From: Mycolicibacter minnesotensis
Lineage (GTDB): Bacteria; Actinomycetota; Actinomycetes; Mycobacteriales; Mycobacteriaceae
Assembly: GCF_010731755.1 (NCBI RefSeq)
Contig: NZ_AP022589.1
Span: forward strand, 1,178,001 to 1,242,000
Reading direction: 5' to 3'
Length of the DNA stretch: 64,000 bases
Shown: in pieces, positions 52,353 to 59,954 of the stretch
Numbering within the stretch: the first letter of the stretch is position 1
Layout of the letters: each line of letters opens with the position of its first letter
Made by a program: the position numbers and the translations under genes
The notes under the pieces: model-generated
Seen by the model: the letters and a program-made list of their open reading frames with translations, nothing else
Database searches by the model: none
What the model was told of the DNA's origin: nothing

Positions 52353-54583
52353 ATGCGGTTGATGGCCGTCGTGACCAGTATCGGCCTAGCCGCTGCAGCA
52401 ATCGCAGTTATCCCACCCAGCACAGCACTCCCGGACCCCGGCGAGCTGAGCTTTGCCGGTCCCGGATTCACCGTGCGCGTCAATCAGGTGCCGTTCGCGA
52501 TGCAGGTGCTCAACACCGCTGGGCAACCGGTGTTGACGCAGGTGCCCAGTAACGGTGGGCCGCGGCTCGTCAAAAACGAAGCCCAGAAGCCGCTGGGCGT
52601 GACCCCGTCCGAGTGGCTGTTTCCCACCCGGTACACACCGTTCACCTTCACCGTGGGTACGTCCTCGACGACCCCGTTTCTCATCAGCCCGTTGTGGGTG
52701 GGCGACCTATGGGAGGCCTCCAGCTGCGGGATGCAGTACGCGGCCACCGGAGTGCTATCCACGCGCCCCTTGCCACAGGGCCTGGAGCTGACGCTGAGTA
52801 CCGACGACCCGTCGGGTCGCACCCTGGGGGTGACTCTCAGCGAGGACTCCGGCCGGCTGCGGGTGTCGGTCGTCCCCAGCAGCACCCAGGGCATCGTCTC
52901 GATGGGAGACAGCTTCGCGTCGCCGACCGGCGAGCGGTTCGCCGGTTTCGGCGGCCTGCACAACGGACTGGATCAGCATGGGGCCGCTTCACCAACTGGG
53001 TGCAGGAGGCCAACGTCGGCGCCGGGCCGTTGGCACCGGTGTTCAATGTCCTGATGGCCAGCTCCGGCGGCCCGCACTATCTGTTCCCCGGCGGTCCGCG
53101 GGCCGCCTACTACGTGCAACCACAGTTCACCTCGACCGCAGGCTACGGCTTCCTGCTGGCCCAGACCGAGTTGGCCGATTGGCATTTGGACTCCGATCGA
53201 CCCGATGCCTGGCACGTCAACGTGGCCGCCGCGCACCTGGACTACGAGGTCGCCGTCGGCGACCCGGGACAGGTGATCAGTGCACTCAGCGCCGCCAACG
53301 GCCGCCACCGTGTCCCGCCGGCATGGGCGCTGGGCACGCAGTTGGACCGCCGCATCGTGACCGGGCAGACCGGGGCCGACTACGCGGAAGTGGTCCGCAG
53401 CGACCTGGCCAACATCGTCGCCTACAACCTGCCGGTCACCGCCTACCGCCCCGAGGCCTGGCTCACCCTGGACCCGGCGGTCCTACGACAACTGATCAGC
53501 GAATTCGGTTCGCACGGCATTCACGTCCTGCTCTACACCCGCAGCTTCGTCAGCATGGATCCGCTGCGCAACACCTCTCCGGCGGACTACCGGTACGCGG
53601 TGGCCAACAACTACGTGGCGACCCACGCCAACGGCAAGCCCTACATCGTCGGCTCCCCCAACCAGGCGCTCGGCGGGCAGGCCGCTGTCATCGACTTCAC
53701 CAACCCCGCTGCCAAAGCATGGTTTCAGCACACGGTGACCGAGCAGCTCGAAATCGGCGCAGACGGGTTCATGAGCGACTTCGGCGAACAGACCCTGCCC
53801 GACATGTATTTCGCCAACGGCCAGACCGGGGCCACCATGCACAACGCCTACCCGGCGCTGTACCAGCAGGCCGTACGTGAAGCGGTGGATTCCTTCGAGC
53901 AATCACATCCGGGCCGCCACATCTGGTTCTACAACCGCGCGGGCTATACCGGGTCGACCGGCTACGAAGGTGGCAACTTCCCGGGCGACGAGAGCACCGA
54001 CTTCTCGGTGGCCTCTGGCCTGGCCGCACTCATCCCGGACATGCTGAACCGGGGCCTGGCCGGCGCCTATGGCTATGGCACCGACATCGGCGGTTATCAG
54101 GACCTGCTGGCCGGCCCCACCCCCAAGGAGCTGTTCGTGCGGTGGTCGGAGATGGCTGCGCTGTCACCGATCATGCGGGTACACGGGGCGCACTCCGGCA
54201 CCCACATGCCGTGGGACTACGACCAGGAGACCTTGGACACCTTCCGACAGCTCGCTGAGCTGCGCCAGCGGGCCATCCCGATGATCTCCGCCACCTGGGC
54301 CACCGCGACCAGCTCCGGCGTGCCGCTGTCGCGGCCGGTGTGGCTGGCCGCGCCCAACGATCCGCAGGCGTGGGCAGCCGACCAGGAATGGATGATCGGA
54401 TCCGATGTCCTGGTTGCTCCCGTCGTCACCCAGGGCGCCACCTCGCGGAAGGTCTATTTCCCACCCGGTTGCTGGAAGCGGCAAGGCAGCGAAGGAAGCT
54501 ACAGCGGGCCGTCCGAGGCGACCGTGGCGGCGCCGTTGGCGGACCTGCCCTACTTCAGCCGCTGCGGTACCGCGGGATTCTGA
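52353..54583 (+). pseudogene. Secreted GH31-family glycosidase, disrupted by a frameshift
   Basis: The first ~210 codons (52353 to about 52980) encode a signal peptide (MRLMAVVTSIGLAAAAIAVI) and the N-terminal domain up to GFGGLHNGLDQHG. The rest continues in another frame from GRFTNWVQEANVG to 54583, with GH31 catalytic Asp segments GFMSDFGEQ (nucleophile) and GNFPGDESTDF (acid/base). The break lies at GGGG (52980-52983): one extra G would restore a continuous protein of about 743 aa. It may be a true pseudogene, a slippery homopolymer giving rare full protein, or a read error. GGAGG lies 6 nt before the ATG. A secreted alpha-glucosidase-like activity would be expected if intact. Confidence 0.85.
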
Positions 54584-54749: not shown

Positions 54750-54763
54750 TATAACGTGTTCTA
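54750..54763. promoter_or_regulatory. Putative KstR operator directly before kstD
   Basis: TATAACGTGTTCTA, identical to the hsaE box, is a full match. It ends 1 nt before the kstD ATG at 54765, so repressor binding would overlap the transcription start and start codon. Confidence 0.88.
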
Positions 54764-54764
54764 C

Positions 54765-56447
54765 ATGGCCCAACAGGAGTACGACGTCGTCGTGGTCGGA
54801 AGCGGCGGCGCCGGGATGGTCGCCGCCCTCACCGCCGCCCACCAGGGACTGTCCACCATTGTCATCGAGAAGGCCGCGCATTTCGGCGGCTCGACCGCGC
54901 GCTCTGGTGGCGGCGTCTGGATCCCCAACAACGAGGTGCTGCAGCGTGCCGGTGTCAAAGATGACATCCAAGCCGCACGCACCTATCTGCACACCATCGT
55001 CGGCGATGTGGTTCCGGCCGAGAAGATCGACACCTACCTGCAGCGCGGGCCGGAGATGTTGTCGTTCGTGCTGAAGCACTCGCCGCTGAAGATGTGCTGG
55101 GTTCCCGGTTACGCCGACTATTACCCCGAGCAGCCCGGCGGAAAGCCCACCGGCCGGTCCATCGAGCCGAAGCCGTTCAACGCCAAGAAGCTCGGCGCCG
55201 ACATGGACCGCCTGGAGCCGGCCTACGGCAAAGTGCCGCTGAACGTGGTGGTGATGCAGCAGGACTACGTCCGGCTCAACCAGCTCAAGCGCCACCCGCG
55301 CGGCGTGCTGCGCAGCCTGAAGGTCGGCGCTCGCACCATGTGGGCGCAGGCCACCGGCAAGAACCTGGTCGGCATGGGGCGCGCCCTGATCGCACCGCTG
55401 CGCATCGGCCTGCGCGACGCCGGGGTTCCGGTTGAGCTCAACACCGCTCTGACCGATCTCTACGTCGAGGACGGCGTGGTCCGTGGCGTCTACGTTCGTG
55501 GCACCGGAGACTCCGAGTCGAGCGAGCCGCGGCTGATCCGGGCACGGCGCGGGGTCATCCTGGGCAGTGGCGGATTCGAGCACAACGAACAGATGCGCGT
55601 GAAGTACCAGCGGGCCCCGATCACCACCGAGTGGACGGTCGGCGCGAAGGCCAACACCGGTGAGGGCATCCTGGCCGGCGAGAAGCTGGGCGCCGCCTTG
55701 GACATCATGGAGGACTCCTGGTGGGGGCCCACGGTGCCGCTGCCCGGAGCACCGTGGTTCGCACTGTCGGAGCGCAACTCCCCCGGATCGATCATCGTGA
55801 ACATGGCCGGCAAGCGGTTCATGAACGAGTCGATGCCCTACGTCGAGGCCTGCCACCACATGTATGGCGGCGAATTCGGTCAGGGCCCCGGTCCCGGCGA
55901 GAACATCCCGGCCTGGCTCATCTTCGACCAGCGTTACCGCAACAACTACATCTTCGCCGGTCTGCAACCGGGACAACGGATCCCGAAGAAGTGGCTGGAG
56001 TCCGGTGTGATCGTGTCCGCGGACACCTTGGAAGAGCTGGCCACCAAGACCGGCGTGCCGGCGGCCGCGCTGGCCGCGACTGTCGAGCGGTTCAACGAGT
56101 TCGCCCGCGCCGGCGTGGACGAGGACTTCCACCGCGGCGAGAGCGCCTATGACCGCTACTACGGCGACCCGACCAACAAGCCGAACCCGAATCTGGGCCA
56201 GATTGCGCAGGGGCCGTTCTACGCGGCCAAGATGGTTCCGGGCGACCTGGGCACCAAGGGCGGGATCCGCACCGACGTGAACGGCCGGGCACTGCGCGAT
56301 GACGGCAGCGTGATCGCCGGACTGTATGCGGCCGGAAACGTCAGCGCTCCGGTGATGGGCCACACCTATCCGGGCCCGGGCGGCACCATTGGACCGGCCA
56401 TGACCTTCGGCTACCTGGCCGCACTCGACATTGCCGGGAAGGCCTGA
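54765..56447 (+). CDS. kstD: 3-ketosteroid delta-1-dehydrogenase KstD
   Basis: The 560-aa flavoprotein has the FAD-binding VVVGSGGAGMVAALTAA near the N-terminus and GGSTARSGGGVWIPNN. The C-terminal YPGPGGTIGPAMTFGYLAA completes the FAD site. It introduces the C1-C2 double bond in ring A of 3-ketosteroids. Length and sequence agree with H37Rv KstD (about 563 aa). The ATG at 54765 follows the KstR box by 1 nt with no ribosome site, implying a leaderless mRNA; the frame is open to GTG 54756 inside the operator. The hydratase gene follows after 1 nt. Confidence 0.95.
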   Translation: MAQQEYDVVVVGSGGAGMVAALTAAHQGLSTIVIEKAAHFGGSTARSGGGVWIPNNEVLQRAGVKDDIQAARTYLHTIVGDVVPAEKIDTYLQRGPEMLSFVLKHSPLKMCWVPGYADYYPEQPGGKPTGRSIEPKPFNAKKLGADMDRLEPAYGKVPLNVVVMQQDYVRLNQLKRHPRGVLRSLKVGARTMWAQATGKNLVGMGRALIAPLRIGLRDAGVPVELNTALTDLYVEDGVVRGVYVRGTGDSESSEPRLIRARRGVILGSGGFEHNEQMRVKYQRAPITTEWTVGAKANTGEGILAGEKLGAALDIMEDSWWGPTVPLPGAPWFALSERNSPGSIIVNMAGKRFMNESMPYVEACHHMYGGEFGQGPGPGENIPAWLIFDQRYRNNYIFAGLQPGQRIPKKWLESGVIVSADTLEELATKTGVPAAALAATVERFNEFARAGVDEDFHRGESAYDRYYGDPTNKPNPNLGQIAQGPFYAAKMVPGDLGTKGGIRTDVNGRALRDDGSVIAGLYAAGNVSAPVMGHTYPGPGGTIGPAMTFGYLAALDIAGKA

Positions 56448-56448
56448 C

Positions 56449-57309
56449 ATGCCGATCGACCTGAAGGCAGCCCTGGGCGCGGAGTTCGGCGCGACCGAAT
56501 TCTCCTGGACGTCGACGAATGTTCAGCTCTACAACCTGGCGCTGGGCGCCGGTTCGGATCCGATGGACCCGCGCGAACTGAGCTACGTCGTCGACGGCAA
56601 CCCGCAGGTGCTGCCCACCTTCGGCTGCGTTGCGGCTTCGTTCAATGAGGTCAACCCGCCCAAGGTCAGCTGGCCAGGAATCGAGATCGACCTGGCCAAG
56701 ATCCTGCACGCCTCGGAGAAGGTGACCGTGCCCGCACCGCTGCCGCCGTCGGGCAGCGCCCGCGCCGTCAGCCGGATCGTCGAGGTCTGGGACAAGGGCA
56801 AGGCCGCCGTCGTGGTCTTGGAGACCTCGGTGACCAGTACCGACGGCACGCCGCTGTGGACGCAGCATCGGTCCATCTTCGCCCGTGGCGAAGGCGGCTT
56901 CGGCGGTGAACGGGGGCCGTCGACCAGCAGCGAACTGCCCGACCGGGCAGCCGACTTCGAGGTCGACATCCCGGTGACGCCGCAGCAGGCACTGCTGTAC
57001 CGGCTCTGTGGCGACCGTAATCCCCTGCATTCAGACCCGGCGTTTGCCGCGGCGGCCGGGTTCGACAGGCCGATCCTGCACGGGCTGTGCACCTACGGCA
57101 TGACCGGCAAGGCGGCGGTGGACATCGCGTTGGACGGCGACGCCGGCGCAGTGCGCTCCTTCGGCGCCCGGTTCGCCGGCGTGGTCTTCCCGGGCGAGAC
57201 CCTGCGGGCACGACTGTGGAAGGACGGCGGCAAGCTCGTGGGCAACGTGGTGGCACCGTCGCGTGACGACGCCGCCATTCTCAACGATGTGGAGCTCGTC
57301 TCGGCATAG
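56449..57309 (+). CDS. hsd4B: MaoC-type enoyl-CoA hydratase (Rv3538-like, hsd4B)
   Basis: The 286-aa protein has an N-terminal hot-dog half and a C-terminal hydratase-2 half with YRLCGDRNPLHSDPAFAAAAGF (Asp and His of the hydratase-2 motif), in parts, and RPILHGLCTYG. It hydrates 2-enoyl-CoA; the old name hsd4B as a dehydrogenase is misleading because no SDR domain is present. It has been discussed as ChsH3 in side-chain oxidation. Length equals H37Rv Rv3538. It begins 1 nt after the kstD stop, so it is in the same operon. Confidence 0.92.
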   Translation: MPIDLKAALGAEFGATEFSWTSTNVQLYNLALGAGSDPMDPRELSYVVDGNPQVLPTFGCVAASFNEVNPPKVSWPGIEIDLAKILHASEKVTVPAPLPPSGSARAVSRIVEVWDKGKAAVVVLETSVTSTDGTPLWTQHRSIFARGEGGFGGERGPSTSSELPDRAADFEVDIPVTPQQALLYRLCGDRNPLHSDPAFAAAAGFDRPILHGLCTYGMTGKAAVDIALDGDAGAVRSFGARFAGVVFPGETLRARLWKDGGKLVGNVVAPSRDDAAILNDVELVSA

Positions 57310-57354
57310 TTCGCCCCCGGAAGCACCGTCGCGCGCCCTGCGTCGACACCTAAT

Positions 57355-57369
57355 TGAAAATGACTTTCA
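57355..57369. promoter_or_regulatory. Putative Zur box upstream of PPE gene
   Basis: TGAAAATGACTTTCA is an inverted repeat (TGAAA/TTTCA) resembling mycobacterial Zur operators. It lies 20 nt before the PPE start codon. TATGGT at 57377-57382 fits a -10 element 7 nt before the ATG, so the box would cover about -35 to -21 and transcription would be leaderless. The sequence differs from the KstR boxes nearby. Confidence 0.7.
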
Positions 57370-57389
57370 TCTTCGATATGGTGTGCGCT

Positions 57390-58877
57390 ATGACCGCGCC
57401 GGTGTGGATGGCCTCGCCCCCCGAGGTGCATTCCGCGGCACTCAGCAGCGGGCCCGGAGCTGGACCGCTGCTGTCGGCCGCCGAAGCATGGTCGTTACTC
57501 AGCCTGGAATACACCGCGATCGCCGAGTCCTTGCGGGAATTGCTGGCCACTACCGAGGCCACAGCGTGGCAAGGGCCCAGCGCCGACAGCTACCTGGTTG
57601 CACACCTGCCCTACCTGGCGTGGCTGGCGAAGGCCAGCGCGGACTCCGCAGCCCATGCCGCCCAGCATGAGGTGGCCGCGACGGCCTACATCAGTGCGTT
57701 GGCGGCGATGCCGACGCTTCCCGAGCTGGCCGCCAACCACGCCATCCACGGCGTGTTGGTAGCGACAAACTTCTTCGGCATCAACACCATTCCCATCGCC
57801 CTCAACGAAGCCGACTACCTGCGGATGTGGGTCCAGGCCGCTACGACGATGACGACGTACGAAGCGGTGGCGTCCGCGGCGCTCGCATCGGCTCCGCAGG
57901 GCACCATGGCGCCAGCCATCGTGACGCACGACGAGCATGACCATGCTCACGACGACGACGAGCACGACCATGATCACGACCACGACCACGGCGGTGACGA
58001 CCACGATCACGAGCACCCCAGCGACGGGTTGGACCCCACCGACCCGGCGTGGTGGCGGGCGGTGCTGGGCGAGTTGGGCTACTACGCCGAAGTGCTCCTG
58101 AACGACCTTCTGACCAATCCGGGTGCGTTCATGAGCGATCTCTCGTGGATCGTCGCCGATCTGACCTTCCACGCCGCGCAGATCGCCGCAACACTGAACC
58201 AGTTCGCACCTGCGCTGATCCAACCGGCTCTGTTCGTGGCTATCGGCAATCTGGGCTGGGCCGCTGGCCTGGCCGGCCTGGCGGGTATTTCGCCGGCACC
58301 GGCCCCGGCCCTCGCCGCGGATCCGGTCACCCTCGCGTTGCCCACAGCTGGAACGTCGTCGGCGACCCCGCCGGCGCCCAGCCCGGCCGCACCCGCAACC
58401 CCGTCGTCTGCGTCCGTGCCGACCACCAGCCCGGCGCAGGCTGCCGCGCCGCCCGCTGCTCCACCGGCACCCAGCAGCCCGGCGTTCTTCCCGCCCTACG
58501 TGATCGGGCCGCCTGGTGCCACGGGTCAGATTGCCGCCGTCACACGACGGCACGCTGCCAACAAGGCGTCGACTCCGCAAGCGGCTGCCGAGGCTGCCGC
58601 GGCGGCCCAGACCGCCCGGGATCGGTCCCGGGCCCGGCGACGCCGAGCTGCTCGCGGGCACGCGGACGAATTCATCTATGTGTTTGCCGACGGCACACCC
58701 GAAGTGCCCTCTGCCCAGGCATCGCATCGCAATGCCGGGCCCCTCGGCCTCGCCGCGGCACACGCCAAAGCCGGCGTACCCGCGACAGGATTGACCACTC
58801 TGGCCGGTAGCAGTCTGCGTGACAGTCCTACCCTTCCGCTGCTGCCCGAGAGCTGGGGCGAACCCACCAACGATTGA
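57390..58877 (+). CDS. PPE4-like PPE protein with His/Asp-rich insert
   Basis: The 495-aa protein has PPE at residues 10-12, the WQG motif at 60-62 and the ESX-3-associated PPE4 signatures [17 protein letters not shown] and, at the C-terminus, RSRARRRR...DEF followed by [20 protein letters not shown] and LPESWG. It is not PPE63, which occupies the same slot in H37Rv. Residues 180-209 contain 12 histidines among Asp/Glu, a likely metal-binding insert. It is probably exported by ESX-3, but no PE partner lies beside it. The Zur-like box suggests induction by zinc lack. Confidence 0.85.
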
Positions 58878-58895: not shown

Positions 58896-58960
58896 CCGCC
58901 GAGCGTGAAGCCACCTTCACACCCGTGCGTCCAGCGTGAAGCCACCTTCACGCTCGGCGG
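58896..58960. repeat. 65-bp palindrome of the CGCCGAGCGTG family, boundary of nuclease unit 2
   Basis: The outer arms CCGCCGAGCGTGAAG and CTTCACGCTCGGCGG are perfectly complementary over 15 bp. Each half also contains its own small hairpin GTGAAGccacCTTCAC, so a cloverleaf is possible. The TGA stop of the minus-strand nuclease gene and its last Arg-Arg-Ala codons fall inside this palindrome. Confidence 0.9.
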
Positions 58961-59787
58961 GCAAGGGCGGAACGCACGCGGCGGATCACGTCGCCCTCCC
59001 GGTCGCCGGCCAACACCCGGACGACGATCCAGCCGCAGCGCTGCAGTCGCTCATGACGCTTCGCGTCCCTGCGCCAGCGGATGTGGTCCGTCCGATGCGT
59101 GTCACCGTCGTACTCAGCAGCGACCTTCGCCTCCAGCCACCCCATGTCCAGCACTGCGAACGGCTGCCAATAGCCGTCATAGACCGGGATCTGGGTTACC
59201 GGCGGAGGCAATCCGGCGCGGATCAGGATGACCCGCAGCCAGCTCTCTTTCGGCGACTCCGCACCGGCGTCGACCAGGCCCAGCGACTCCCGCGCGCGCA
59301 CGATGCCGCGTCGTCCCCCACAACGATCCACAATCCGTTGGACGTCAACGTCTTTGAAGTCGGCGGCGCGAGCCAGCGCATCCAGGCCCGCAACCGCCTC
59401 GACTGTCCGATACCAGCAGGCCAGGTCCACGGCGGTGCGCGCCGGCGTAGTGACTGGCACCCCGTCGATCACCTGGATCTCATCGCAGCGCAAGGTGTCG
59501 CCACGAATGAGCAGACCGGGCAAGCGATGCCGATTCCCGTGGATGAGTTCGACGGGCCTGTCGGCGCCTACCCATTGGCCGCCGTGCAGGGCCGACGCCG
59601 AGAAACCTGCGACCACACCTTGTCGCTTTGACCAGAGCCACCCCGCTCTGGCCCGGTCGACCGCGGTGACCTCGATATCCCTGTGCAGGTACACATCACG
59701 AAACACCCTGACGTGACCCGTGATCAATTGCCCCGGCGTCACCAGTCCAGCGTCAAGCGCCTCGCTGCCGATGAACGGGTCTGCCAC
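58948..59787 (-). CDS. AbiEi-like/DUF559 putative endonuclease, unit 2
   Basis: The 279-aa protein is a full-length homologue of the one at 30596-31471 and opens MADPFIGSEAL. It has an AbiEi-like N-terminal region (WSKRQGVVAGFSASALHGGQWV, in parts) and the same VSR-like residues: E181, D214 in AVLDMGW, and EYDGDTHRTDH followed by D241AKRHE. The sequence around the key positions is better kept than in unit 1 (LEAKVAAEYDGD has the Lys and Glu typical of PD-(D/E)XK). Nuclease activity is predicted, not shown. It is bounded by palindromes of the same family. Confidence 0.77.
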   Translation of the reverse strand: MADPFIGSEALDAGLVTPGQLITGHVRVFRDVYLHRDIEVTAVDRARAGWLWSKRQGVVAGFSASALHGGQWVGADRPVELIHGNRHRLPGLLIRGDTLRCDEIQVIDGVPVTTPARTAVDLACWYRTVEAVAGLDALARAADFKDVDVQRIVDRCGGRRGIVRARESLGLVDAGAESPKESWLRVILIRAGLPPPVTQIPVYDGYWQPFAVLDMGWLEAKVAAEYDGDTHRTDHIRWRRDAKRHERLQRCGWIVVRVLAGDREGDVIRRVRSALARRA

Positions 59788-59868
59788 GACGGCAGCGTCT
59801 CACCCGGCTTCGCGAGCCGTCACTTCACTCCGCTGGGCTATCCACACCCCGCCGCATTCACACCCCTG

Positions 59869-59932
59869 CCCAGCGTGAAGCTGGCTTCACGCTCGACCGT
59901 CCAACGTCAAGCCAACTTCACGTTCGGCGGGC
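59869..59932. repeat. 64-bp imperfect palindrome of the CGCCGAGCGTG family, boundary of nuclease unit 2
   Basis: It contains a perfect 10-bp hairpin AGCGTGAAGC/GCTTCACGCT on the left and a weaker CGTCAAG/CTTCACG hairpin on the right, ending CTTCACGTTCGGCGG. That end is the inverse of the start of 58896-58960 with 14 of 15 matches. It lies between the nuclease start and the ltp2 stop. Confidence 0.85.
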
Positions 59933-59954
59933 TAGCGCAAGAAAGCGAGGGCGC

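Follow-up and report, generated by a model that had tools for sequence, protein, structure and literature searches.

What is a solitary PPE gene for when it lies behind a zinc-type regulatory box and encodes a run of histidines and acidic residues? The gene in question is found in a 64,000-nt stretch of DNA (the window; G000:C1:1178001-1242000) from a 4,224,047-bp single-contig genome whose closest named relatives are Mycolicibacter. We favor, at a probability of about one half, the reading that this is a zinc-starvation gene whose product, a Zur-repressed PPE protein exported by ESX-3, would use its His/Asp linker to capture zinc at the cell surface for uptake. A preliminary description of the locus had already pointed to the box, a -10-like hexamer and the insert, and on re-reading of the sequence these elements, together with all coordinates and residue counts given for them, proved to be correct. 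The features are as follows.

57350..57374, + strand: invariant block CTAAT-box-TCTTC, the outer bases of which lie outside every search pattern
57355..57369, + strand: Zur-type box TGAAAATGACTTTCA, at -35 to -21 relative to the ATG at 57390
57377..57382, + strand: -10-like hexamer TATGGT, a candidate promoter element (GATAAT/GATAAG-like in the related loci L045 and L040)
57390..58877, + strand: PPE protein gene, 495 aa, solitary and probably leaderless
57405..57893, + strand: PPE domain, residues 6-168; the closest solved structure is PPE4 of the PE5-PPE4-EspG3 complex
57927..58016, + strand: His/Asp-rich linker insert, residues 180-209 (12 His, 15 Asp/Glu), modeled with low confidence and taken to be disordered
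58044..58262, + strand: helical segment after the insert, residues 219-291, predicted by the structure model
58716..58856, + strand: PPE-PPW C-terminal region, residues 443-489, from Pfam

The open reading frame at 57390-58877 matches the Pfam models PPE (1.9e-60) and PPE-PPW (3.7e-12). It belongs to the PPE family by score (PF00823, 204 bits versus a cut-off of 26) and by a fold that matches PPE4, PPE41 and PPE15, and to the PPE-PPW subfamily by a score of 46.5 bits for PF18878, where the cut-off is 27. The AlphaFold model of the protein has a mean pLDDT of 66; the PPE bundle is modeled with confidence, the insert is poorly defined, and helices are seen at residues 219-291. Upstream of the gene is a 3-oxosteroid dehydrogenase/MaoC pair (54756-57309), and on its other side lies a divergent protein (58948-59787) with a DUF559-type match below cut-off. 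By the gene order KstD - MaoC - PPE - Ltp2-like, this protein may take the place that PPE63 has in H37Rv, as the preliminary description proposed. None of the 13 PE-domain matches in the genome falls within the 64-kb window, which bears out the earlier remark that the gene has no neighboring PE; one of the 13 sits in the ESX-3 locus.

Allowing up to three mismatches, the window holds two matches where 0.20 are expected, and both are this one site read on either strand. The pattern TGAAAATGANTTTCA has its sole exact match in the whole 4.22-Mb genome at the window box, and at up to two mismatches it finds nine distinct genomic sites versus one for the reversed control pattern. The box is also conserved in relatives, a check that the preliminary description had proposed. 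Across the window and five Mycolicibacter loci, fetched by protein and chosen for a box at -35/-36 (L045-L048 and L077), the box is 100% identical, whereas positions -80 to -41 have a mean pairwise identity of 0.54. Six bases on its 5′ side and five on its 3′ side are likewise identical in these six loci, whose upstream sequences are all distinct. A larger set (12 distinct of 15 loci) gives a box identity of 1.0 and a flank identity of 0.49-0.57, but nine of its loci (L036-L044, including the window's own copy) were fetched with a pattern containing the box, so that the box identity is partly by construction and only the outer bases are fresh evidence there. It was for this reason that the footprint was repeated on the window and the five protein-fetched loci, which bore it out. 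In two further loci of the Mycolicibacter clade, L049 and L050, the box is a different one, TGAAAACGATTGTCA, and lies at -93/-95. As a separate observation, L077 (Mycolicibacter icosiumassiliensis) encodes a close-kin PPE with the box and a 15-His insert whose frame stops at residue 302, either as a pseudogene or through a sequencing error.

An ATG lies inside the box, and seven public proteins are annotated from it (start MTFIFD). We considered this start and rejected it, because in L040 and L045 the in-box ATG meets an in-frame TAA after six codons. The ATG at 57390 is therefore the better start, the mRNA is probably leaderless, and the block is conserved as DNA rather than as peptide. Since TATGGT ends seven bases before this ATG, transcription is likely to start at or beside its A.

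The 15-mer of the box is the same as a FIMO-predicted Zur box of MAP3737, a PPE gene of M. avium subsp. paratuberculosis (MAP) for which a 75.65-fold induction by the chelator TPEN is reported (PMC4298942). From 13 of the 19 boxes in Table 2 of that source, with two mptA boxes excluded, we built a matrix for scanning. The window box scores 26.6 bits on this matrix, which includes its own 15-mer. The whole genome yields a single FUR-family match, at G000:C1:3401330-3401680, and the genome accordingly seems to lack a second member of the family, such as FurA. NCBIfam Fur models score above the Zur model for this protein and all fall below cut-off, and we call it Zur, presumptively, from the boxes and from the place of its gene beside a glycyl-tRNA synthetase gene.

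The pattern TGAAAAYSATTTTCA occurs at 11 distinct genomic sites, including the window box, and its reversed control at none. One site lies 188 bases before the EccA gene (TIGR03922; eccA3) of the ESX-3 locus, and a box pair lies between a gene for a GTPase matching "ribosome hibernation factor-recruiting GTPase MRF" and an S18 ribosomal protein gene. CobW-like and ribosomal genes of comparable kind are listed as members of the MAP zinc regulon (PMC4298942). Some of the 11 sites may be chance matches, being intragenic. With a box that covers its predicted promoter and is conserved in relatives, the window gene has the sequence character of a Zur regulon member; it seems to be under putative Zur repression and would be made only when zinc is scarce. 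The footprint, the MAP3737 15-mer, the one FUR-family gene and the boxes at eccA3 and at the MRF-type GTPase/S18 genes are all consistent with the Zur-type box first proposed for this locus. Elsewhere in the genome, at G000:C1:4162701-4165982 (L026, L009), two tandem PPE genes without a His insert have a Zur-like box, TGAAAACCATATTCA, just before the first of them, and similar tandem PPE pairs with a box are present at L067 and L072.

The insert is as the preliminary description had it, with 12 histidines among 15 Asp/Glu in residues 180-209. With the His frequency outside this segment as the base, the binomial chance of this His count is ~2e-12 per 30 residues. Such a segment might have grown by repeat slippage as low-complexity sequence and be neutral in a tolerant linker, and it does sit in a poorly ordered linker and vary in length and His number among close homologues, one of which (P0007) has only four His. 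We consider this origin unlikely, because the His codons are mixed (nine CAC and three CAT), the longest perfect hexamer tandem spans 12 bases, and at least five His per 30 residues are kept at the place of the insert in 92 of the best 120 homologues, a list that favors insert-bearing proteins; of the others, P0007 has four and 27 have three or fewer. The insert also gives a weak match to the ZrgA zinc-uptake family (PF10986), but at 20.5 bits versus a cut-off of 27.4 membership was rejected, and the likeness is that of a His-rich stretch matching below cut-off. Our search of the open-access literature, subscription papers being outside its scope, found no description of a His-rich PPE under Zur in the texts it returned, and both the insert and its pairing with a Zur-type box seem to be unreported so far.

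Three comparisons bear on the export route. Alignment of the PPE domain gives 225 bits with PPE4, 88 with PPE15 (ESX-5 type) and ~62 with PPE41, and a 10-residue stretch is common to the window protein and PPE4 in this alignment. Foldseek returns PPE4 of the PE5-PPE4-EspG3 complex (PDB 6uuj), with the same fold and 66% identity over the PPE domain. PPE-PPW proteins are described in a review as increasingly likely to be ESX-3-dependent, with related members acting in iron and heme uptake (PMC7028111), and in M. abscessus both PE5/PPE4 and a PE5/PPE4-like pair are reported to require ESX-3 (PMC11791044). The window protein is thus probably exported by ESX-3, and the tie to this system that had been suggested earlier fits its PPE-PPW membership and PPE4-type domain.

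Box and insert were compared across relatives, as the preliminary description had advised. A box is present at 20 of 22 PPE loci that bear the His insert versus 17 of 55 that lack it (Fisher p 1.8e-6, with relatedness ignored). The scan covered 77 of 78 named loci from -400 to +20 at a score of at least 12 (L109 was excluded because its match starts inside the gene). This cut-off was chosen after the scores were known, and at a cut-off of 18 the counts are 15/22 versus 13/55; random 430-base stretches away from the scanned promoters reach 12 in 72 of 3539 cases. One of the two His-bearing exceptions, L051, has no box within 400 bp on a contig that ends 314 bp upstream; the other, L061, has its closest box at -2660, and its sister L057 has one at -351. 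A strict box-plus-start pattern, which finds only exact boxes near a start, occurs in 9 of 297 genus genomes, one of which is the window's own.

A tree made after removal of the insert columns (quick IQ-TREE with SH-aLRT; 88 rows, namely the window protein, 10 of its genome's own PPE-PPW proteins and the 77 loci) places the window PPE in a 17-row clade with an SH-aLRT of 100. The genome's own L011 is absent from the tree because its ORF is unresolved. Every row of this clade, which spans Mycolicibacter, Mycobacteroides, Mycolicibacterium and Mycobacterium, has both the box and a His insert. The genome's own ESX-3-locus PPE4 (L010; box score 0.7, three His), which lacks a His insert and any box within 400 bp, falls in a separate starred clade, and PPE4 orthology was rejected on this ground. 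The label "PPE4-like" in the preliminary description accordingly holds for the type of domain but not for the branch. Orthology to PPE3 (Rv0280) is improbable as well, judged from gene neighborhood and from PPE3-type rows: the neighbors of the window gene differ, and the PPE3-type rows L097, L100, L108 and L117 lie outside the 17-row clade. These four genes, beside an Rv0281-like gene and eccA3 (L097, L100), eccA3 (L108) or an Rv0281-like gene (L117), are PPE kin whose box lies around -60, but they have no insert (three or fewer His per 30 residues). Both box and insert are lacking in the PPEs that lie between an Rv0281-like gene and eccA3 in L068, L073, L085, L086 and L101.

It had been said that an insert absent from close homologues with the same box would speak against the pairing. 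No such homologue occurs in the 17-row clade, although more distant relatives do have the box without the insert. On the tree the insert changes state four times and the box six times, and an independent-pairs test finds three pairs on starred branches with a median p of 1; with so few changes a pairwise test is unable to reach significance. Because the box precedes 17 of 55 insert-less relatives, an insert would not be required for Zur control. The box is the wider of the two traits and probably the older, and Zur control may have come first, with the insert then added or kept in several lineages, a direction that we infer from the distribution of the sequences.

This distribution leaves room for a different role. 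The protein could be a Zur-controlled PPE3-type protein with a general ESX-3 or envelope function, such as protein or nutrient passage, whose linker binds metal incidentally or buffers it and has no part in uptake. The spread of the box beyond the insert is what one would see in that case, as is the presence of a box without an insert in L097, L100, L108 and L117, and PPE-PPW kin are described as serving iron and heme uptake (PMC7028111). We judge this role somewhat unlikely, given that 17 of 17 clade rows keep both traits across several lineages and that, among the matches listed in the survey below, no box precedes any of 39 other ORFs with His arrays.

The nearest published gene is MAP3737, an Rv0280/PPE3 homologue with predicted Zur boxes and strong TPEN induction. 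Unlike the window gene, it is part of a zinc island that also includes transporter and siderophore-like genes, and its boxes are at -197 and -248 rather than -35 (PMC4298942). Zur control of a PPE is thus already known, and since this Zur-regulon member is PPE3 kin, the "new branch" of zinc acquisition proposed for the locus was overstated.

We surveyed HDHDHD codons across 59 genus genomes and fetched 78 of 79 distinct sites among the matches listed, leaving out G015:C146. At 44 of these 78 sites, the ORF chosen by base composition reads the array in its H-D frame. Among the matches listed, a box precedes four of four HDHDHD PPEs, the window's included, and none of 39 other ORFs (a Gly-rich protein described below was not counted); the count is weakened by the close kinship of three of the four PPEs. 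A re-check of the remaining sites among the matches listed gave no further PPE. By eye, the 39 other ORFs seem to be His-rich proteins of familiar cytosolic or transport types. These numbers led us to reject a general association of Zur boxes with any His/Asp array, and the link between box and array seems instead to be special to exported carriers.

The window's genome has exact HDHDHD codons only in the PPE gene and at G000:C1:732786, with one match for the reversed control. The second site belongs to a Gly-rich protein (G000:C1:730707-732836; L024, L268) with an apparent signal peptide, PGRS matches at or just below cut-off and an 18-residue C-terminal end of (HD)n type. Its likely ATG lies ~325 bases after a Zur-like box, TGACAATGATTTTCA, at 730707. 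Four strong DNA matches were found in eight genomes searched (L270, L272, L273 and L274). All four encode the tail, and the box is present in three (G078, G130 and G069) and absent in G181, so that with the window's genome the tail is found in five of five genomes and the box in four of five. At this locus the box and adjoining bases are conserved and much of the leader is variable. A search with the 165-residue N-terminal part gave four matches, and the one inspected, P0125, lacks the tail. Tentatively, and with the odds against it, mycobacteria may have a group of exported, His/Asp-rich zinc catchers that Zur controls and that are built on unrelated carriers, comprising ESX-3 PPEs with His linkers and signal-peptide, PGRS-like proteins with (HD)n tails. 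If so, both carriers would form an outer-envelope zinc-capture step linked to ESX-3, similar but unrelated to the His-loop zinc proteins of other bacteria.

Exported proteins of comparable character have been described elsewhere, and we liken them to the window protein by description. PA4063 of Pseudomonas aeruginosa is reported to be an exported protein that is made under zinc lack or without Zur and uses disordered His-rich loops for zinc (PMC8561739), and ZepA of Anabaena is an exoprotein that is reported to appear under zinc lack or without Zur and to mediate zinc uptake (PMC10957091); unlike the window protein, neither is a PPE protein. ExsI of Corynebacterium glutamicum is described as a T7SS-secreted, metal-binding protein for metal uptake under a FUR-family regulator, but there the metal is iron and the regulator Fur (PMC12607788).

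His-rich stretches bind several metals. The linker might therefore serve iron, nickel or copper, or act as a metal sensor that gates folding or export of the PPE, and ESX-3 is reported to serve iron as well (PMC3796483). We regard this as improbable, since the promoter mark is of the Zur type.

The zinc-capture reading starts from features present in the DNA, namely the box, its footprint, the gene, the insert and their clade-wide co-occurrence; to these we add Zur binding, an ESX-3 route, a PE partner, metal binding and a role in uptake. The protein is probably a PPE that Zur represses and ESX-3 exports, and its disordered linker would bind metal, with zinc as the proposed ligand. Zinc-loaded Zur on the box would cover the -35 region and block transcription; as zinc falls, Zur would be released and a leaderless mRNA made. 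The PPE would then pair with the product of a PE gene elsewhere in the genome, most likely the one in the ESX-3 locus, be carried by EspG3 and be exported by ESX-3, whose own promoter region also has a box. Once on the surface, the linker, a flexible His/Asp segment that separates the PPE domain from the helices after it, could bind zinc and so concentrate it locally at the mycomembrane, where other transporters would take it up.

A 2026 paper calls the crossing of the mycobacterial outer membrane by zinc "unexplored" and points to a zinc-regulated porin of M. smegmatis (PMC13098993). ESX-3 is reported to take part in the zinc adaptation of M. tuberculosis, and the relevant passages name no zinc-handling substrate (PMC3796483). 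The window gene, which has a Zur-type box and encodes a probable ESX-3 substrate carrying a His/Asp linker, is a concrete, testable candidate for such handling, and the recurrence of box and His stretch together in related species suggests a testable route to extracellular zinc capture.

Two other details of the window were recorded. Short dyad repeats, GTGAAG..CTTCAC, seen by eye at ~58905-58965 and 59865-59935, flank the DUF559-like gene on both sides. The region 52353-54583 has overlapping ORFs of 233 and 656 aa, which resemble a single exported gene split by a frame change.
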